Translations under genes and position numbers: made by a program | Shown here: positions 5,275 through 13,439 of the stretch, piece by piece | How the letters are laid out: each line of letters starts with the position of its first letter | Numbering within the stretch: position 1 is the stretch's first letter | The notes under the pieces: generated by a model | Database searches by the model: none | What the model saw: only the letters and a program-made list of their open reading frames with translations | What the model was told of the DNA's origin: nothing | Source of the DNA: a virus | IMG/VR virus record: IMGVR_UViG_3300009159_000103 | Location: 1-46,758 of that record | Reading direction: 5' to 3' (one strand) | Length of the DNA: 46,758 bases

Positions 5275-5827
5275 TCTTTTTTGGAAAATACTCAACATTG
5301 CCGTACTTATTAATGAAAGTATCATCTCCATAATGTTCGTGCGTGTGCTTAAATATATCTTCTATAAGCATCTCATACAAATAATGGTGTGAATCTCCAA
5401 CCCACCCCATGACTGAAGAGTTTCCATTACAAAAGAACTTTTCTTTATTCTTATAGTCTAACTTTTCAACTGAACTCCACCATTCATCATTCTTCCAAAC
5501 TGTATCTACTATTTTTAATACTTCTTTCTCAACTGTTTCGACTAAAAAATCTACGTTCTTTTTTATCAATATATCTAGATCAAAATACAGATTAATTCCA
5601 GGACTGCATACGTCTTTATTGAACAAAGCTACTTTATTCCACCAAGTGTCAAGTTCAAATGGAGTTGCATCGATGAATTCAATTGGACGATTAGTCTTCC
5701 ATTCATAATCAGTAAAACAGTGCATCTTAAATTCATACGTTAAATACTTACAGAGCTGGTCGTATAAGTTTTCGACGTGCTCTATAGAATACTTTGGCTT
5801 CACTAAGACGCAGTAAACATTTATCAT
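5189..5827 (-). CDS. glycosyltransferase on the minus strand between two paralogues
   Basis: A 212-residue GT-A-like protein: an N-terminal strand and helix with HCFTD, the WWNKVALF helix, DxD in INLYFDLDILIKK (about residues 77-89), then NGNSSVMGWVGD and a His-rich C-terminus. It is a more distant relative of its two flanking + strand genes, which share HCFTD/FYCFTD and DLDILI. Its start codon (5825-5827) and the start codon of the + strand gene at 5826 share two bases, so the two genes diverge with no intergenic DNA. Its 3' end overlaps the gene at 4507 by 86 bp. No Shine-Dalgarno is visible. Confidence 0.7.
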   Translation of the reverse strand: MINVYCVLVKPKYSIEHVENLYDQLCKYLTYEFKMHCFTDYEWKTNRPIEFIDATPFELDTWWNKVALFNKDVCSPGINLYFDLDILIKKNVDFLVETVEKEVLKIVDTVWKNDEWWSSVEKLDYKNKEKFFCNGNSSVMGWVGDSHHYLYEMLIEDIFKHTHEHYGDDTFINKYGNVEYFPKKIMTTAARKHVRLEDERILIHYHTIPIIL

Positions 5828-6536
5828 GAATCAAACCGTTAAGTTTATAGTTTTAAAGTGGGGTACCAAATATGGGCCCGAATATGTTAATAGACTATTT
5901 AGGTCTCTGAAAGCAACCTATTCGGGTGAATTCGAGTTTTATTGCTTTACAGATAGTAGTCGTGGTGTTGAGTGTAAAACATATCCGATTGAGATGCTAC
6001 CTCTATTTAAATCGAATGTATTTACAGTATGTAAGCTCGATCTATTCAATAAGCTTCCTTTTAAGGGTCCGTATTGTCTTCTTGATCTTGATCTTCTTAT
6101 TCTTAAAGATCTTAAACCATATTTCGATGAATATGGTTTTAAAGAACCGAGGATGATATACAATTATTGGACTGAAGTTCAAAGAATCTATAAATCATAC
6201 TATACTGGAGATTGCTACGTTAACAGTTCATTCGTGACTTGGGACGGAGATCAACTCAAGTGGATGCGAGATCGCTTTATAGAGAATCAGGAAGTAACAG
6301 CTTTCAGGTTCAAGACTTTAGATAAATTCATTTACTATAGCAGTCGCAAAGATATGAAGTATCATCCCCGCGGAATTGCTTATGCTTATAGTTTTGGGGC
6401 TGAATACCCAAATGATCTAGATCCTTATAAGCAAAGAGATCAATACATATCGATTTTTAACACTTCACATAAGAAAGGTGTCGAGCTTCACGACGCCAAT
6501 GGATGGGCTAGAGATGTTTGGACCAGGTACGACTGA
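5826..6536 (+). CDS. glycosyltransferase, paralogue of the gene at 4507
   Basis: A 236-residue GT-A protein sharing with the gene at 4507 the opening KWGTKYGPEYVNRLF, FYCFTD, the DxD motif CLLDLDLLILKD, YVNSSFVTWDGDQLKW and IFNTSHKKGVELHD. The DxD pair should bind the metal and nucleotide sugar. The start codon overlaps that of the minus-strand gene at 5189-5827. There is no visible ribosome binding site, so translation of a leader-poor mRNA or of read-through mRNA is implied. Substrate unknown. Confidence 0.75.
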   Translation: MNQTVKFIVLKWGTKYGPEYVNRLFRSLKATYSGEFEFYCFTDSSRGVECKTYPIEMLPLFKSNVFTVCKLDLFNKLPFKGPYCLLDLDLLILKDLKPYFDEYGFKEPRMIYNYWTEVQRIYKSYYTGDCYVNSSFVTWDGDQLKWMRDRFIENQEVTAFRFKTLDKFIYYSSRKDMKYHPRGIAYAYSFGAEYPNDLDPYKQRDQYISIFNTSHKKGVELHDANGWARDVWTRYD

Positions 6537-7146
6537 GCAAGACTACATTAAAGACTTAGACAAGATCCATGGCGAGATCTTTAAGCACCTTGATAGCAGA
6601 GGTTTAGAGTACGTTTATAGACTCTATGCAATGCACAATGATGAAAAGATGCGTAACCGTAACTTTATTGCTATGGACGTAATAAGGAAAAACTTCAAAA
6701 GTTTAAAGAATGTTGCAATAGTCAATAGTAGCAATCCTATTGCGCTAACCCACTTCTTAAAAAAAGAATATCAATCATCTGTAACTCTGGTATCTGATCA
6801 TCCATCGTTTGAGATGTCTGAAGGCTTCTTTCAAAGATTCTTTAAAGCCAATACGGTTATTAAAACCATATTCTTTGAAGACGTTGACTTTTCTTCTTAT
6901 GATCTCGTGATATTGTCTGAGTTTGAGTATTTAGTTCCTCTTGATATGTTGAAGCACGTAAAATTTGGAGACTCACCAATCTTAGCACTTCAACATATCC
7001 AACACGTTAATGATCACAATAGTCGTCACTTTGTGATGTGTATTGAAGACCTTCTTGAACTATGTAACTTTAAGAATTTATTAGATTCTAATGCTAAACT
7101 AAATACAGATAATAGATTAGTTTATTATGCACTTGGAGTGAGGTGA
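6514..7146 (+). CDS. unknown island protein, Rossmann-like
   Basis: About 210 residues from the ATG at 6514; an ATG at 6499 and a GTG at 6478 are also in frame, so the start is uncertain. An N-terminal helical part (DLDKIHGEIFKHLDSRGLEYVYRL) is followed by alternating strands and helices: NVAIVNSSNPIAL, SSVTLVSDH, YDLVILSEFEYL. This looks like a class I methyltransferase or dehydrogenase fold without the usual glycine-rich motif I. It overlaps the glycosyltransferase upstream by about 23 bp and overlaps the minus-strand gene at 7125 tail to tail by 22 bp. No function can be assigned. Confidence 0.55.
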   Translation: MFGPGTTEQDYIKDLDKIHGEIFKHLDSRGLEYVYRLYAMHNDEKMRNRNFIAMDVIRKNFKSLKNVAIVNSSNPIALTHFLKKEYQSSVTLVSDHPSFEMSEGFFQRFFKANTVIKTIFFEDVDFSSYDLVILSEFEYLVPLDMLKHVKFGDSPILALQHIQHVNDHNSRHFVMCIEDLLELCNFKNLLDSNAKLNTDNRLVYYALGVR

Positions 7147-7769
7147 TTCGGCGGAGTAAGGATGATCTTTACATGTTCGTCAAGCCACCAAGGATCTGCG
7201 GCGTGAATGTATTTTTCATTCGCGTCTTGCTTTAGAATCTCGTCAATCTGCGGATCTTCCCACGCCATCGGAAAGTCAAGCCAGTGACCAAGCGATCTGA
7301 TATACTGACGTCGGTATAAGTACAAAAGTTCTTGGCTAACAAAGAATGGTGGCACCTTCATCCATTGAATAAGCTGAGGCATATTTCCCCATGTTGGTCC
7401 ACCTCGAAGTCTAGTTTGTTGATGAGTTAAGATGTTCTTGTCTCTGCCTATAACTACAGGTTGAACATCGATTCCAAGACTTTCACACTTTTCAATAAAT
7501 TCAAAAATTGGTGGAACTTTAGGCAGCCACTTTTCGATATAAGGATTGCTTATACTCGTCACGGCGTATTTCTTTCCGCCCATGATATTCAAATCTATTT
7601 TATCGATGTTATTCCAATAGTAGTTGAAAGGCTCTTTGTAGTGAGGGATAAAGTATCCATCGGGTTTAAGCGCGTCTTTCCACCCGTGAACTTCCGGATG
7701 CATACTAAAGATTTTACTGAATAGATGATTGCCAGATCCTTGTGGACCAAATAATACTATGAGTTTCAT
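7125..7769 (-). CDS. P-loop sulfotransferase-like protein
   Basis: A 214-residue protein opening with a strand and P-loop, MKLIVLFGPQGSGNHLFSKI, then HPEVHGWKD. The loop GPQGSGNH resembles the 5'-phosphosulfate loop of PAPS-dependent sulfotransferases and also some nucleotide kinases. A middle strand PVVIGRDKN has the feel of the second PAPS-binding segment (strand, Arg/Asp). Tryptophan-rich segments follow near the C-terminus. Its start overlaps the stop of the methyltransferase at 7769 by one base (TAATG), so the two minus-strand genes are translationally coupled. Sulfonation of a glycan is the inferred role; a kinase cannot be excluded. Confidence 0.6.
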   Translation of the reverse strand: MKLIVLFGPQGSGNHLFSKIFSMHPEVHGWKDALKPDGYFIPHYKEPFNYYWNNIDKIDLNIMGGKKYAVTSISNPYIEKWLPKVPPIFEFIEKCESLGIDVQPVVIGRDKNILTHQQTRLRGGPTWGNMPQLIQWMKVPPFFVSQELLYLYRRQYIRSLGHWLDFPMAWEDPQIDEILKQDANEKYIHAADPWWLDEHVKIILTPPNHLTPSA

Positions 7770-8518
7770 TATTTTTTAATCAACTCAAAGTAAAGTCTAT
7801 TTCCATTATCTTTCTTAAATGACTCTAGTTTACAATTATGAAGAACTGCTATGTTATACGCAGTCTCAAAGTCCCATGGATAGATATCAACCCACTGACC
7901 ATTCTTATGAATTTCTCCAGGATTAGCTCTAACATAGATAGTACCACCCGGCATAGTCAAGTCTACAACTTTCTTGAACTTGTCGTTAATATCGCTAAAT
8001 TCACCAAAGTTAATACTGCCAAAAACAATAACATGATCGTATGATTCATTGGGAACGTTATAGTCTAGAATATCAACCATGAAGTCGGCTGAATTATTGA
8101 ATGCATCGATGCCTATAAGATTCTGGATTCTGGCTTTAAACTGATTAAAACCACAACCAACGTCAAGTACGGCTTTAGGATTCGAATTATTAATTCTATC
8201 TACGATATTCCATCCAGTGTATTGATACACCTCAGTCCTTGGCTGCCATATTCCTCCCCAGAATCTAGAACTATACTTGGTGTCAATGTCAGCCACGAGC
8301 ATAGAAACTGATAGATCAATGTTAATATCAACATCGAATGTATCATTCAATAAAGCTATAAACTTCTCAAGTTTCTTTGGAGTCCATGGAAGCGATAGTA
8401 CCATAGTATTCACACTAATGCTTTCACGAGCTTGCGCGTATTTTGGAAGATTAAAGCACTCTTTTAAATTTTTAAATACAAAGTTAAATATTTTACGATT
8501 CACAATAAAAATTCCCAT
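7769..8518 (-). CDS. class I SAM-dependent methyltransferase
   Basis: A 249-residue protein with SAM motif I at AVLDVGCGFNQFK (about residues 115-127). An acidic strand end (IGIDAF) follows, then VDILDY, the motif IV-like strand SYDHVIVFGSINFGE and the post-IV PGGTIYVRAN. The N-terminal 100 residues are a separate helical/beta region. It is clearly related to the + strand methyltransferase at 12145 (ILDVGCGHNHFK, DSINFGPK). It is the first gene of a two-gene minus-strand unit and starts 62 bp from the divergent oxygenase gene. Methyl acceptor unknown; a sugar or peptide in the same glycan pathway fits the neighbours. Confidence 0.75.
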   Translation of the reverse strand: MGIFIVNRKIFNFVFKNLKECFNLPKYAQARESISVNTMVLSLPWTPKKLEKFIALLNDTFDVDINIDLSVSMLVADIDTKYSSRFWGGIWQPRTEVYQYTGWNIVDRINNSNPKAVLDVGCGFNQFKARIQNLIGIDAFNNSADFMVDILDYNVPNESYDHVIVFGSINFGEFSDINDKFKKVVDLTMPGGTIYVRANPGEIHKNGQWVDIYPWDFETAYNIAVLHNCKLESFKKDNGNRLYFELIKK

Positions 8519-8553: not shown

Positions 8554-8589
8554 GATTAGTAAGGAATTTTTCTTTAGAGGATGAAAAAA

Positions 8590-9333
8590 ATGACAGAATA
8601 TCAAGATTGGGGCGATAGTCGCTGGGAATTTACTAAGAAGCAGAGCAGCTGGCATTTTGATCCTAGTAAACCACCAGTTCCAGGCACCGATAGTTATACG
8701 TATGTCTGTAGATTTAATTCCGACTTCACTGACGCTATTTCAAAGTGCATGCCTCGAGCAAAAGCAAGCAATTGGAGTAGTCGAAATAATTTCAATGAAA
8801 AGATAGCTGAAGAGGGTTTGTATTCTGCGAGCGTTGAAGAGAAAGATCTAATCAAAGCTGGTGCAGATCCAAAACAAGAAGTATTTCATCGAACAGCTGC
8901 TGAAGATATTGAGATCTTTCAAAAGATTGCTGAGTATCTTGGAATTGATGAACCCATGATTAAGTTTCATAATCAGACTACAGGTCAGATGCTTCATACA
9001 CATATAGATAACTTTGCAGCTCGACCCGAGCGCGAAAACAGTTTCAAAGAAATTGACATCGATAAGAATCCAAACATTATGCGAAGGTTTGTAGTCATGT
9101 TAGCTGACTGGGAACTTGGGCAGATCTTTCAGATTGGTAATGCAAACTTTACTCAATGGAAAGCTGGCGACTGCATTACTTGGGAATGGAAAGACATGCC
9201 ACACAGCACCGCTAATATGGGATGGTGGGATAGGCCGATGCTTCAAATCACGGGTTATATAACAGATAGAACTAAAGAATTACTTAATGAAGTATACAAT
9301 GTTACCGGCAAGAATTTAGTGGTAAAAATATGA
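8590..9333 (+). CDS. 2-oxoglutarate/Fe(II) oxygenase-like (cupin/jelly-roll) protein
   Basis: The ATG at 8590 is preferred over the one at 8581, which abuts its own Shine-Dalgarno (GAGG at 8577-8580). The protein (247 aa) has a complete facial triad pattern: H-T-H-I-D with His138 and Asp140, and a distal His205 in DMPHSTANMG. These are separated by the strands RRFVVMLADW and FTQWKAGDCITWEW; Arg in DRPMLQITG could bind the 2-oxoglutarate carboxylate. The 'W..GD...W....H...N.G..R' spacing is typical of jelly-roll dioxygenases. It is the first gene of a + strand run of six overlapping or abutting genes. The substrate is unknown. Confidence 0.65.
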   Translation: MTEYQDWGDSRWEFTKKQSSWHFDPSKPPVPGTDSYTYVCRFNSDFTDAISKCMPRAKASNWSSRNNFNEKIAEEGLYSASVEEKDLIKAGADPKQEVFHRTAAEDIEIFQKIAEYLGIDEPMIKFHNQTTGQMLHTHIDNFAARPERENSFKEIDIDKNPNIMRRFVVMLADWELGQIFQIGNANFTQWKAGDCITWEWKDMPHSTANMGWWDRPMLQITGYITDRTKELLNEVYNVTGKNLVVKI

Positions 9334-10064
9334 ATCAGGTTACTATAGTAGTATATCCACCGGGGGCTTATGGTAGTTTTATCAGCTGGATGATAGAACG
9401 GTTTAGTAAACACCGCACGGATGTAATAGACAATCCACTATTATCAGATGGTAGTAGTCACGGTTATGCTAGTTTCTGTAAAGTCAAAGGCATAGATGAT
9501 TTTATGGCGGGACTTGAAGAAGCTCGCAATAATACTAAGCCATGGCATACTAACGTATATGCTGGTTGGCCTTCTAACCCATCAGAAAACTTAGATGACA
9601 ATATCAAGACTATACTAAATTGGATGATGCCTTTCGATAGATTAATCTACATTGATGTAGATAGCGCAGAGGAACACATATTATGTTATTTGCGAAATGA
9701 AGCAACTATGAATCGTGATCGTTGGTATGATATGCTAGGTGTAGATAACGATGATCAATTAGCTGAAAGATTACGTATTGACATCGATAGTCATGGACTA
9801 TCATCTATAATCGACTCTAGGTTAACTAGATTAATCATAGGGGATATCTTAGACGGATTTGCGTCTGACCTATGGTCCAGGATGTGTAGAATACTTGGAT
9901 GGCCTATGAAAGACTATAATTTATATCTTGAAGTCATCAAAGAGATGAGACTTAAACAACAAATATTCTATCAGTTAATAGCTGAAGGATTTGGGCCGGA
10001 AGGAACTCCGGTTCAACGCGCTGCATTTAAATATTTTAAGGAGAAAAACAATGGATCTAACTAA
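9330..10064 (+). CDS. unknown, sulfotransferase/P-loop-like
   Basis: A 244-residue protein beginning VTIVVYPPGAYGSFISWMIERF, a strand followed by a glycine-containing loop and helix. This resembles the P-loop start of the other sulfotransferase-like proteins in the island (GPQGSGNH, TGAPGSAW) but lacks the usual GxxGS core. Later segments include NWMMPFDRLIYIDVDS and RDRWYDML, a layout seen in phage sulfotransferase-like proteins. It overlaps the upstream gene by 4 bp (ATGA) and the symporter start by 14 bp. Function unproven. Confidence 0.5.
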   Translation: MNQVTIVVYPPGAYGSFISWMIERFSKHRTDVIDNPLLSDGSSHGYASFCKVKGIDDFMAGLEEARNNTKPWHTNVYAGWPSNPSENLDDNIKTILNWMMPFDRLIYIDVDSAEEHILCYLRNEATMNRDRWYDMLGVDNDDQLAERLRIDIDSHGLSSIIDSRLTRLIIGDILDGFASDLWSRMCRILGWPMKDYNLYLEVIKEMRLKQQIFYQLIAEGFGPEGTPVQRAAFKYFKEKNNGSN

Positions 10065-11520
10065 AATTTTCCCATTATTTACTCCCGACACCGGCATTAT
10101 GGTTTTAGGAATCTACGCTGCTATCGTGTTTGGATTGACATGGGTTTTTGCTAAAGGTTATGCCACTAGTAAAGAGGGTTTCTTTGTAGCCCGCAGGGAA
10201 GTAGGTGCACTTCAGGGGGCTATGAGTACTGGTGCTGCTTGGATGTGGGCGCCTGGAATGTTCATCTCTGCACAGCAAGCTTATATGAATGGACTAGTCG
10301 GATTGTTCTGGTTCTGTATTGGTAACTTCCTAAGTCTTATATTCTTCAGTTGGTTTGCTAAGAGATTAAGAGATAAGAAACCCGATGGTTTTACTATTTC
10401 AGGTTATCTTAAAGAAAAGTTTGGTAAACGTGTTCAATCATTGTTTATGGTAGAACTATTTAGTCTCGCTATTTGTAGCTTTGCTATTAACGTATTAGCG
10501 GGATCTAAATCGGTTCAGGTTCTGACTGGATTAGATTATCACTTTGTTAGTTTGATTCTAGCAACTATTGCATTGACTTATACTTTGCGTGGTGGATTAA
10601 AAGCATCAGTTATAACCGAAATATTCAAACTGTCTGTGTTGGTATTGGGCTTGGGCGTATTAATGCCTTGGGCAGTCAGTGCCGCGGGTGGTTGGGGTGT
10701 AGTTGATCTTGGCCTTGGTGGTATCACTGGTAATGGTCGTGATATCTTTGGCACGGACTTTGCTCTAGGCGTGTTTATGGGCTTTGGCTTTTCTACTGCT
10801 ATTGGTCATATGGGCGCACCATGGGGTGATAATGCATTCTATCAACGTGCTTTTGCTGTAAAGAAAGACAGTGTTATTAAAGCATTTGTTGGCGGAGCAT
10901 TCATATTCATTCTAACACCATTGATGACTGGTATTCTTGGCTTCCTTGCTGCTGGTATGCATTACGAAGTTCCTAAAGAATTACTTGGTTATGTTAACGT
11001 GCTTACTGTTGGTAACCTATTGCCAGCATGGGCTGCTATCATGTATTTGTTTATGTTGTTCGCGGGCCTCGTATCTGTGCTTGACTCACAACTTAGTAGC
11101 GTCAGTAATATCTTTGGACACGACGTTAAGAACATGATTAGACCACACGGCGACGATCAAGCTAGCATCGATATCGGAAGAGTTGGTATGTTATTCTTAA
11201 TCGCAGCTGGTCTGACTCTGGCTAACTGGCCAGGAATGACTCTAGTCACTATCTTTTTATTCTTTGGTATTCTTAGGGCTACTGTGTGGTTCCCATTGAT
11301 GTTTAGTCTTTTGAATGAAAAGTTAGTTAATGAAGCTGGTATGTTCTGGGGCGTATTGATTGCTTACTTGGTTGGATTCTCAACTTATGTTTATGGTCAA
11401 AACTTCGGCGGTGGTCCAAACATCGCAGTACTTGGAACTTGTCTTGCTGTCTTTGGTTCAGGCGCTTTGGCTCTTGGAATCACAAAGTTGCAAAACGCAA
11501 ACTTTAATGGCGATAAGTGA
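10051..11520 (+). CDS. sodium:solute symporter (SSS family)
   Basis: A 489-residue integral membrane protein with about 13 hydrophobic helices, for example IMVLGIYAAIVFGLTWVF, LFWFCIGNFLSLIFF, FIFILTPLMTGILGF and AIMYLFMLFAGLVSV. The segment FAGLVSVLDSQLSSVSNIF matches the SSS family core helix, whose Ser/Thr residues line the second sodium site (compare PutP and DUR3-like urea carriers); GFxVARREVG near residue 40 is also family-like. The start at 10051 has a strong AAGGAG 7 bases upstream; the longer reading from 9991 would begin inside the previous gene. A TTTAAATA box at 10026-10033 could be a late promoter. It overlaps the next gene by 4 bp. A full-length carrier in a phage virion-gene region is unusual; the solute (urea, amino acid or sugar) cannot be told. 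Confidence 0.85.
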   Translation: MDLTKIFPLFTPDTGIMVLGIYAAIVFGLTWVFAKGYATSKEGFFVARREVGALQGAMSTGAAWMWAPGMFISAQQAYMNGLVGLFWFCIGNFLSLIFFSWFAKRLRDKKPDGFTISGYLKEKFGKRVQSLFMVELFSLAICSFAINVLAGSKSVQVLTGLDYHFVSLILATIALTYTLRGGLKASVITEIFKLSVLVLGLGVLMPWAVSAAGGWGVVDLGLGGITGNGRDIFGTDFALGVFMGFGFSTAIGHMGAPWGDNAFYQRAFAVKKDSVIKAFVGGAFIFILTPLMTGILGFLAAGMHYEVPKELLGYVNVLTVGNLLPAWAAIMYLFMLFAGLVSVLDSQLSSVSNIFGHDVKNMIRPHGDDQASIDIGRVGMLFLIAAGLTLANWPGMTLVTIFLFFGILRATVWFPLMFSLLNEKLVNEAGMFWGVLIAYLVGFSTYVYGQNFGGGPNIAVLGTCLAVFGSGALALGITKLQNANFNGDK

Positions 11521-12143
11521 ATAAGTACATATTCATAACGGGGGCTCCAGGTTCTGCCTGGAGCCGAGTTGCATCAAGCATATATAAAAGTACGAGTCTA
11601 GATAATAGCGATTACTCGAGTGATCGTACTTTTACATATGTAAATGATGAAAAACAAATAGAAAAAAGCTTTCATCATGGCGTATATTTTGGTCCAGATC
11701 AACAATTCGGAAAAAGATTCGATAAATTATACGAGATGACTAAAGATGAGATTGAACTGGAGATGAATCTTCCTTTCAATAGTTCTGGCATAAAGGTTAT
11801 TAAGTGCCATGACTTCTCATATCAATTAGATTTTTTATCAGAGACTTGGCCTGAGTGTCCAATAATAATGTGCCATAGGCCTATGGAAATAAGTTATGAT
11901 TGGTGGATGCACATAGGTGGTCCAAATATAACTTATCCATCTTATAAGTCTATTGATCCTAAGAAATATATTAATCTCTGCAACGATGGAATATATGATT
12001 TTATCAAAAAGAATAAAACTATTGAAGTTAAAAACAACATGGAATTATGTGAAGTTTTAGAGATCGATCCGGTGAATGATATATATTATTACGATAACTC
12101 TGATGGTAAAAATGTTATTACGAATGTGAATGTGAAGGTTTAA
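11517..12143 (+). CDS. P-loop sulfotransferase-like protein (paralogue of 12750)
   Basis: GTG start overlapping the symporter stop (GTGA). 208 residues: P-loop at YIFITGAPGSAWSRVASSIY (residues 4-23), then KVIKCHDFSYQLDFL, CPIIMCHRPMEISYDWWMHIGGPNITYP and a charged C-terminus. The strand with 'MCHRP...S..WW' corresponds to the second PAPS-contact segment (Arg then Ser) of sulfotransferases. Nearly the same frame occurs in the gene at 12750 (TGAPGSKWSSVVRNIYF, LVYRNSDSCIGWWVRCGHFNITYP), so the two are paralogues. The transferred group is inferred to be sulfate. Confidence 0.65.
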   Translation: MNKYIFITGAPGSAWSRVASSIYKSTSLDNSDYSSDRTFTYVNDEKQIEKSFHHGVYFGPDQQFGKRFDKLYEMTKDEIELEMNLPFNSSGIKVIKCHDFSYQLDFLSETWPECPIIMCHRPMEISYDWWMHIGGPNITYPSYKSIDPKKYINLCNDGIYDFIKKNKTIEVKNNMELCEVLEIDPVNDIYYYDNSDGKNVITNVNVKV

Positions 12144-12144
12144 T

Positions 12145-12753
12145 ATGGAAAACGTTTTCTCTCTAATTAAAGAAGCAAATGATGAAATTCTTTGGATGTT
12201 TTCCAAAGACGTTCATGAACTCATCCTCGATAAGTACTTTAGTACATATTTTGAAGACGTGCCAGACTTAAGTAAATATTCTATTGTGCACACAGTTGAA
12301 ACTAATTGGTGTAAGAATATTCTAGATGTCGGCTGTGGGCACAATCACTTCAAATATGAATTCTTAGCTTGCCGCTTCACGAGCATTGATCCCTACATTG
12401 ATGGTGCAGACTATAAGATGAATGTTATAGAATATCAGGAAAACTTCCCTGATCGTCAATACGACTGTCTAATAGCTTTAGACTCTATTAACTTTGGCCC
12501 TAAACCTAAAATTTTAGCTGAGATTGAAGCTATAGATAAACTTACTCAATCTGGAGGCTTACAGATTTGGCGTGTTAATAATAAAAATGAACCACGAATC
12601 GATGAAACGTTTCCAATCTCCGAACTAATTCAGTATTTTAAATGGGATAGAGATTTCATACAACACGTTGTTAACATTTATGATTATGAACTTATAGAAT
12701 ACACAGAAGAGTCTGATAATATCTTATTTGTAATGAAGAAAAGCTCGCAATGA
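12145..12753 (+). CDS. class I SAM-dependent methyltransferase (paralogue of 7769)
   Basis: 202 residues with SAM motif I at NILDVGCGHNHFK (about residues 55-67), an acidic second strand FTSIDPYIDGAD, motif IV-like YDCLIALDSINFGPK and post-IV SGGLQIWRVN. The arrangement and wording match the minus-strand methyltransferase at 7769-8518 (DVGCG.N.FK, ID....ADF/Y, SINFG). It lies between two paralogous sulfotransferase-like genes and overlaps the downstream one by 4 bp (ATGA). It probably methylates the same class of acceptor as its relative. Confidence 0.75.
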   Translation: MENVFSLIKEANDEILWMFSKDVHELILDKYFSTYFEDVPDLSKYSIVHTVETNWCKNILDVGCGHNHFKYEFLACRFTSIDPYIDGADYKMNVIEYQENFPDRQYDCLIALDSINFGPKPKILAEIEAIDKLTQSGGLQIWRVNNKNEPRIDETFPISELIQYFKWDRDFIQHVVNIYDYELIEYTEESDNILFVMKKSSQ

Positions 12754-13439
12754 AATATAGTCCTCTAATGAAATATATTTTTGTAACTGGCGCACCAGGA
12801 TCTAAATGGAGTTCAGTGGTTCGCAATATCTATTTTAGTAGTAGCATAAATCAAAGCGATTTTTCTATGGAACGCAGATATTATCATGATGCTTCCGGAA
12901 AGCGGCAATTAATGCACCTCGGATCTTATTTTGATCCAGGAATGGAATTTGGAAGTGACTTCTATATATTAGACTCAATTGAAAAAGAAGAAGCTGAAGC
13001 TAAATTTCATAAACCATTTACCAATGATGTTGGTATAAAGATCATAAAGAGCCACTTCTTCTCTTATCATCTTGATCACATAAAAAGAACTTGGAAAGAC
13101 CCAATCGTTTTAGTATATCGTAACTCCGATTCTTGCATAGGTTGGTGGGTTAGATGTGGCCACTTTAATATCACGTATCCAAAGTATGATTATTACAGCG
13201 ATATAGACTCTATGGTAAAATACATTGATTCTCAGAATAAAGCTATTAAGAAATTCATCGAAGAAAATGATGTATTGCAACTTCATAATAGTATTGAATT
13301 AGCTCGAGCATTAGGCATCAATCACGATAGCGTCAATAGTAAAGGCGAAATGGACGTTTATTATCAAGACTATGAAAAGAACGATATTAAAGTTTATCTT
13401 TATTGGCCTAAATATGATGGAAGCGAAGCTTTTAGTTGA
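12750..13439 (+). CDS. P-loop sulfotransferase-like protein (paralogue of 11517)
   Basis: 229 residues from an ATG that overlaps the upstream stop (ATGA); an ATG at 12768 would match the N-terminus of the paralogue better. The P-loop is KYIFVTGAPGSKWSSVVRN, followed by GIKIIKSHFFSYHLDHI and IVLVYRNSDSCIGWWVRCGHFNITYP, parallel to the gene at 11517. It is the last island gene. A late promoter follows at 13443, and the end of the coding sequence (13431-13437) forms one arm of an inverted repeat around that promoter. Confidence 0.65.
   Translation: MKYSPLMKYIFVTGAPGSKWSSVVRNIYFSSSINQSDFSMERRYYHDASGKRQLMHLGSYFDPGMEFGSDFYILDSIEKEEAEAKFHKPFTNDVGIKIIKSHFFSYHLDHIKRTWKDPIVLVYRNSDSCIGWWVRCGHFNITYPKYDYYSDIDSMVKYIDSQNKAIKKFIEENDVLQLHNSIELARALGINHDSVNSKGEMDVYYQDYEKNDIKVYLYWPKYDGSEAFS

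Follow-up and report, generated by a model that had tools for sequence, protein, structure and literature searches.

The window analysed here is the whole stretch of 46,758 nucleotides of a lake phage, stored as IMG/VR virus record IMGVR_UViG_3300009159_000103. On its plus strand, positions 10051..11520 encode a 489-aa transporter of the sodium:solute symporter (SSS) family with the LeuT fold and 13 predicted transmembrane (TM) helices. An AAGGAG ribosome-binding sequence (10038..10043, plus strand) stands 7 nt ahead of the ATG, the 5′ end of the reading frame shares 14 nt with the upstream one (9330-10064), and its 3′ end shares 4 nt with a downstream frame that starts with GTG (11517-12143). 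These data bear out the original prediction of a complete 13-helix SSS carrier (the reading frame, the Pfam SSF match and an AF2 model agree) with its own ribosome site and with coding overlaps on both sides.

Placing the gene in a virion/glycan operon, as was also proposed at first, proved a loose description. Endolysin and connector genes are indeed found from 13823, and a weak glycosyltransferase match exists at 5826-6533 (E 4.9e-5), but the stretch 7125-8518 is read from the opposite strand and the nearest neighbours show weak matches of the sulfotransferase, 2OG-oxygenase and methyltransferase type instead. The first of these families, F1 (7125..7769, minus strand), is a P-loop protein with the motif GPQGSGNHLF and a weakly sulfotransferase-like fold, followed by the methyltransferase-like F2 (7769..8518, minus strand; weak, under the Pfam cut-off). 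On the plus strand, F4 (8581..9333) is a 2OG-Fe(II)-oxygenase-like protein with conserved H-x-D, H and R and a weak PDB profile match to AtsK (E 0.004), whereas F3 (9330..10064), a 244-aa protein with a P-loop-like YxPGxxGSF motif, overlaps the start of the SSS gene and has no family match. Past the carrier, and on the same strand, a first copy of the P-loop-like protein F5 (11517..12143, motif GAPGSxWS) overlaps the SSS stop codon, then come a second F2-type methyltransferase-like gene (12145..12753; again weak and under the Pfam cut-off) and a second F5 copy (12750..13439). PDB profile searches with F3 and F5 gave no usable match. The F1 model weakly resembles tyrosylprotein sulfotransferases (best E 1.9e-3, TM 0.41), and no match to F1 was obtained among 50,697 phage records; with hundreds of relatives in viral contigs (at least 536 loci), it may constitute a phage sulfotransferase family.

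The phage was correctly recognised as T4-like, as the window carries a gp23-like head protein, terminase, sheath, portal, helicase and a gp46-like protein, with the head protein nearest to those of Stenotrophomonas DLP6, Methylophilales Melnitz and Pelagibacter phages. Among other phages with the same module of genes the T4-like status is mixed. The phrog_138 head protein occurs in three of six module records (the window, G008 and G011; not in G007, G009 and G010), the phrog_2 terminase in three of eight, and a search for the phrog_213 portal in nine module records other than the window gave no match at all. Moreover, a gp15-like sheath stabiliser is found in L024 (in G009), and virion-type proteins in L074 and L081. 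In one of these records (G008:C1:102616-104994) the terminase match extends over several stop codons, a pattern that an inserted element, for instance an intron, might explain.

Family, fold and distribution of the carrier

The window protein matches Pfam SSF (PF00474) with 88.7 bits against a cut-off of 22.8 (E 4.8e-25), over positions 1-405 of the 406 in the profile. More specific models fit it less well, as it reaches 127.6 bits with NCBIfam TIGR00813 (sodium/solute symporter), under the curated cut-off of 184, and 51 bits with PutP (TIGR02121), for which the equivalog cut-off is 515.5; it also falls far under the cut-offs of the PanF and VC_2705 NCBIfam models, and the MctC, ActP and MctP models (NF058657, PRK09395, TIGR02711 and NF046076) did not match it at E 0.01. 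On the other hand, phrog_20720, a family labelled as of unknown function, matches it with E 5.3e-92. The AF2 model (pLDDT 88.5, from a 26-row alignment) contains 13 predicted membrane helices by our own count, in which the merged helices 67-109 and 163-211 were split and the broken TM1 and TM6 counted once each, and the predicted fold agrees with the LeuT fold of 13-15 helices of solved SSS members. By sequence, the best PDB match is DUR3 (E 2e-22, ~22% identity), which also leads the Foldseek search with the model (TM 0.81), followed by CHT1 and SGLT. A second structural aligner (VIA) puts CHT1 at the top (Z 42.9, 2.6 Å over 462), with Z scores of 38.5 for DUR3 and 35.0 for SiaT. In BFVD, four matches at E 0.001 or better were obtained, the top one being a 308-aa podovirus protein.

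The search for homologues in other phages suggested with the original prediction was productive, since 12 loci were found in viral contigs with the window protein as query, and 23 when an alignment was used. In the phages collection, tblastn with the window protein retrieved a single record, an UNVERIFIED faecal contig (37%), and two other SSS proteins retrieved 42 and 28, among which faecal contigs and bacterial-looking entries are frequent; plasmids gave three weak matches (24-26%). A first scan of genome contigs (query A1) found no relative, and a second one found eight loci from named genomes. Five of them (L038-L042) sit amid ParB-like, PAPS_reduct-family and packaging genes, surroundings that are phage DNA; the packaging genes were assigned by Pfam for a gpA-type terminase (L038, L040) and a portal (L038, L042), and the rest by clustering or reading. 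The same PAPS_reduct-family gene is present in L043. L037, from a Bdellovibrio MAG, shows bacterial-looking neighbours with a cupin gene and, by reading, a glycine-dehydrogenase-like ORF, and L044 is a distant match (22%). At E 1e-20 the subfamily is rare in whole genomes, turning up in 2 of 290 genomes from one phylum and in 3 of 291 from one class, the class matches being L131 and L132, with PAPS_reduct neighbours, and L130, which is the locus of L039.

Altogether, 86 SSS loci were collected over the fetched loci, corresponding to 45 unique proteins, 43 of them of at least 380 aa. These 43 form one group (100/100) in a tree of 52 rows, and within it 31 distinct phage proteins form one clade (97/96). 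The remaining 12 comprise 10 copies of the temperate type and two from Bdellovibrionota, L128 and L129, which have long branches and an unsure placement; the former, from Bdellovibrio, groups with the temperate-type copies with weak support (90/61).

Selection against change in the SSS gene is strong, with dN 0.045, dS 1.13 and dN/dS 0.040 between the window gene and that of L048, the closest relative distinct from it, and a dN/dS of 0.03-0.13 for the other computable pairs (10 sequences, many pairs being saturated at silent sites). Two further IMG/VR contigs have the same locus, with identities of 99.99% (17,467 bases) and 99.95% (12,994 bases). The gene is thus phage-borne, as indicated by the phage clade, the phage surroundings and the independent assemblies. 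The possibility of a chimeric contig, raised as a check with the original prediction, was set aside by these two other assemblies (~99.9% over 13-17 kb), and the view that the gene is not a fresh insertion stands, given the strong purifying selection, the further phage loci and the matching assemblies. Two simple explanations could also be discarded, a dead gene by the dN/dS of 0.04 and a recent host insertion by the 31-member phage clade.

The carrier travels with the module. In 21 module-type loci (the window, L007, L014-L031 and L035, including near copies such as the window, L014 and L015, and with each gene counted anywhere in the locus), F1 is present in 20, F2 in 19, F3 in 15, and F4 and F5 in 14 each. 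A scan of viral contigs with F1, for which the best 79 distinct loci of at least 536 were considered, showed an SSS gene in 33 of these 79. When F1 is at least 57% identical to that of the window, a split chosen after the data were seen, the SSS gene is found in 32 of 38 of these best-matching loci, and the six lacking it all come from contigs no longer than 8.9 kb that leave a short flank; if loci are required to have 4.5 kb or more on both sides, the count becomes 21 of 21, whereas below 57% identity it drops to 1 of 41 (1 of 23 with flanks), all these numbers including near copies (L045/L046, L079-L082). Such a distribution, with the SSS gene accompanying the closer F1 proteins and nearly absent with the distant ones, suggests that the carrier either joined or was retained in a single branch of an older module, which also occurs without it, for example in L106, a record of 524 kb. 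Other genes seen near the module are those for the large subunit of DNA topoisomerase II (phrog_543; L017 and L064) and for a NodU/Nol-like carbamoyltransferase (phrog_1601 in L018 and L028, by similarity in L027), the latter group of loci also having radical-SAM/SPASM genes close by.

Ion-site residues and the driving ion

According to the parts of the SiaT study used here (PMC5931594), the Na2 sodium of this carrier is held by Ser342 and Ser343 of TM8 together with carbonyls of TM1 and TM8, transport is lost in each of the mutants Ser342Ala and Ser343Ala, and Asp182 on TM5 binds a Na3 ion located 6.5 Å nearer the cytoplasm. The same pages give Na2 as conserved in just 54.2% of 39,612 SSF sequences, so its loss would be common across the SSF. 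In the window protein, E190 (codon 10618..10620, plus strand) corresponds in the alignment to the Asp that SSS carriers have in TM5 (Asp182 of SiaT), K193 (10627..10629, plus strand) is found in TM5 where most sampled SSS carriers have Gln, and S342 and V343 (11074..11079, plus strand) take the place of the TM8 hydroxyl pair (SiaT Ser342/Ser343), of which the second is lost. The two hydroxyls that define Na2 in Na+-coupled SSS carriers are therefore not both present. From the direction and pitch of the helix, K193 should lie at the level of Na2, one turn outward of the TM5 acidic residue.

This arrangement is general in the phage clade. Position 193 is Lys in 31 of 31 rows, and position 343 is V in 16, I in 13 and L in 2, without a single hydroxyl; position 342 is S in 26 and A in 5, the acidic position 190 is E in 18 and D in 13, D345 is invariant (31/31) and S/T346 is kept in 30/31. 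The temperate-type relatives have Q193 and T343 (10/10), L129 has Q and T, and the carrier of Aeromonas phage 44RR2 has Q, S and T, whereas L128 shares K and I, so the change of the ion site may predate the phage clade. Conservation of the sodium-site residues, the test that the original prediction set for itself, thus fails at position 343 in all 31 rows. Loss of the Na2 hydroxyl under such strong selection points to another driving ion and not to a dead protein.

As a separate observation, SSS genes with an intact Na2 lie near PAPS_reduct-family (F6) genes, as defined by clustering, in 10 of 10 loci (L013, L032-L034 and L038-L043), among which L032/L039, L033/L043 and L040/L041 are near copies; Pfam was run on the L040 copy, and the Na2 state of L032, L039 and L043 was taken from scored near copies.

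The sampled genomes contributed 86 SSS rows (85 distinct). Nine of these have K at position 193 and none of the nine keeps S/T343, which is kept in 72 of the 77 non-K rows; the Fisher p for this pairing of K with hydroxyl loss, 4e-9, ignores relatedness. Five of the nine K rows could be classified, three as MctC-like (653, 596 and 494 bits; cut-off 670), L199 as MctP (702.9 bits; cut-off 625) and L237 as MctP-like at 250 bits, under the same cut-off. Annotated controls showed K, A and V for ActP, and Q, S and T for both PanF and PutP. DUR3 aligns His and Ala at the places of K193 and V343, a parallel weakened by L234, a sampled-genome row with His at 193 and the S-T pair kept. Over 131 rows, K goes without S/T in 41 and with S/T in none, S/T goes without K in 85, and five rows have neither. 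Counting by ancestry, the fairer test, leaves three supported independent pairs of K with hydroxyl loss, all in the same direction (sign test p 0.25), so few independent origins that significance is not reached.

Loss of the Na2 hydroxyl pair combined with a basic TM5 residue, a signature proposed here and without a published definition, is found in the phage protein, and its class would comprise carriers of the MctC, MctP, DUR3 and CbrA type, CbrA being placed by description alone. Uptake by MctC and MctP is driven by the proton potential, as stated in the consulted portion of PMC5626966. In the relevant sections of a review of the family (PMC7918813), MctC is a proton symporter, MctP is cation-coupled, ActP is a sodium/acetate symporter, CbrA is H+-stimulated with Na2 residues that are not conserved, and a positive residue in the place of sodium is described as able to alter coupling. 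MctP has also been put in the sodium solute class (PMC3688616). In another LeuT-fold branch, Lys162 of LysP, equivalent to Lys158 of ApcT, lies on TM5 at the Na2 position and has been proposed for H+ coupling in the part of PMC12764776 used here. The known cases lean to H+, with ActP as the exception.

The reading we favour, with a probability of about one half, is that the SSS gene product is a working importer of a small solute, driven by H+ rather than Na+, and that this solute serves the phage module. A LeuT-fold SSS (PF00474) carrier would bring the solute into the infected cell, with H+ as the most likely driving ion because V343 removes the second Na2 hydroxyl and K193 is added about one turn from the TM5 acid, an arrangement like that of MctC-, MctP- and ActP-type carriers and with a TM5 lysine as in ApcT/LysP. 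The P-loop sulfotransferase-like, methyltransferase-like and 2OG-oxygenase-like proteins of the module would then use the imported solute or act together with it. What argues for H+ is the constancy of K193 with V/I/L343 in the 31 members of the clade versus Q and T in the 10 temperate-type relatives, and the fact that the sampled K rows never keep S/T343 (0/9) versus 72/77 of the others.

The strongest competitor, a possibility to be taken seriously even if a minority one, is an ordinary Na+:solute symporter that would bind Na+ at a modified Na2 or Na3 site. The protein is a clear PF00474 member, and the acidic residue at 190 (31/31), S342 (26/31), D345 and S/T346 may amount to a Na3-like site, the last two residues being those that could provide an alternative cation site. 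Moreover, ActP carries the same K and V and is called a sodium/acetate symporter in the passages used of PMC7918813; if this description is correct, sodium would be compatible with the signature, and ActP may speak against the step from it to H+ coupling. Against a sodium symporter stand the combination of V/I/L343 with K193 in every member of the phage clade, the absence of S342 itself in five of the 31, and the requirement for both Na2 serines in SiaT, as far as given in PMC5931594. The idea of the original prediction that the carrier is sodium-coupled, or alters the sodium gradient, is not supported, with the second Na2 hydroxyl ligand gone and a TM5 lysine gained throughout the clade.

Candidate solutes and known systems

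As for the cargo, a tentative candidate is urea, an amide or a guanidino compound, imported with H+ for nitrogen supply or for a phage amidino-transfer reaction. This idea relies on DUR3 as the best PDB match by sequence and by Foldseek, but the second aligner prefers CHT1 and the identity to DUR3 is only ~22%. An amidinotransferase-like gene lies at most 0.9 kb upstream of the SSS gene in L072, L074, L076 and L079-L082, and genes of this kind, 24-27% identical, are found within ~7 kb in L016, L027, L028 and L029; L079-L082 are, however, near copies, and the window has no amidinotransferase-like match. These neighbours resemble HsvA (E 2.4e-5) and AGAT (E 3e-4). Those within 0.9 kb upstream encode 358-aa proteins with relatives in 18 loci, some without SSS and some being re-fetched copies. 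In L129, the gene of the cellular relative shares 4 nt with one for an amidase (PF01425, E 8.7e-87), although this relative keeps Q and T and is 32% identical. In itself, the overlap (L129:92-2955, in G118) hints at an amide solute.

A monocarboxylate carrier of the acetate/pyruvate type, convergent with MctC/ActP, is unlikely. The K and hydroxyl-loss signature is common to MctC-, MctP- and ActP-type carriers, but it speaks of the ion and not of the solute, and the NCBIfam models for these three carriers do not match the phage protein at E 0.01. Likeness to DUR3, the amidinotransferase-like neighbours and the L129 amidase hint at urea, amide or guanidino compounds, and neither these hints nor the organic-acid-carrier signature settles the solute.

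Sulfur supply as a common theme of the sulfotransferase-like and PAPS-reductase-like proteins is only a lead, the PAPS_reduct fold serving other reactions too. The related temperate-type phages keep a sodium-type SSS next to PAPS-reductase-like enzymes, so both groups may share the purpose of providing substrate for phage chemistry. In this line, a rather speculative extension would be a phage lineage with its own proton-driven carrier family, remodelled at the sodium site and importing one specific small molecule for a phage modification module and not as general food; the molecule would perhaps be urea, an amide, a guanidino or a sulfur compound.

Phages repurpose host membrane proteins, and the activity of the SSS protein is a prediction. 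A protein that does not transport at all, acting as a receptor decoy, in superinfection exclusion or on the membrane potential, would accommodate both points, but it is improbable, even slightly more so than a monocarboxylate carrier, in view of the conserved transport core, the dN/dS of 0.04 and a lysine signature common to active carriers. An assembly chimera or a host gene recently passing through deserves hardly any credit. In its favour, GC content and T skew are slightly higher in the SSS stretch than around it, as often happens in membrane-protein genes; against it, two more assemblies agree with the window at 99.99% (17.5 kb) and 99.95% (13.0 kb), and the phage clade has 31 members.

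The existence of SSS genes in T4-like phages was already known from the Aeromonas phages 44RR2, 31 and Riv-10, whose SSS carriers were described in 2018 (PMC6163359, in the portion used here). What seems new is a separate subfamily with a fixed module and an altered ion site. Phage SSS genes had previously been listed as host-like sodium carriers, and the word 'phage' does not occur in the main text of the SSS review PMC7918813; those described here form a separate phage clade with a fixed partnership. Our results raise the sharp question of whether K193 and V343 set the driving ion of the phage carrier, suggest a sequence rule to spot which carriers of this family, in spite of its sodium name, are proton-driven, and caution that the family name by itself does not justify calling such phage genes sodium symporters.

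Several known systems help to situate the phage protein. The urea-proton symporter DUR3 (PDB 9j7c, 9x5u, 9vim) has the common SSS fold, likewise misses the second hydroxyl of Na2 and carries a basic residue, His, at the place of K193, but it is a longer plant protein of low identity, and its likeness to the phage protein is one of homology. The carriers of short organic acids MctC, ActP and MctP share both Lys at 193 and the absence of S/T343, differing in family assignment as judged by their NCBIfam models. The SSS gene of the Aeromonas phages 44RR2, 31 and Riv-10, in the reported portion of PMC6163359, is also carried by T4-like phages, but the window protein did not retrieve it by tblastn, it has Q and S-T, that is, a normal Na2 pair, and it lies by motA among other genes (6.2 kb seen). 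Closer to the window protein, phrog_20720 and the SSS proteins of temperate-type Clostridia phages (L013, L032, L038-L042) belong to the same subfamily (100/100), differing in that the latter keep Q193 and T343 and stand beside ParB-like, PAPS_reduct and packaging genes. Finally, ApcT and LysP of the APC family are amino-acid carriers from a different family, in which a TM5 lysine at the Na2 position, as presented in the used part of PMC12764776, resembles the mechanism proposed here for the phage carrier.
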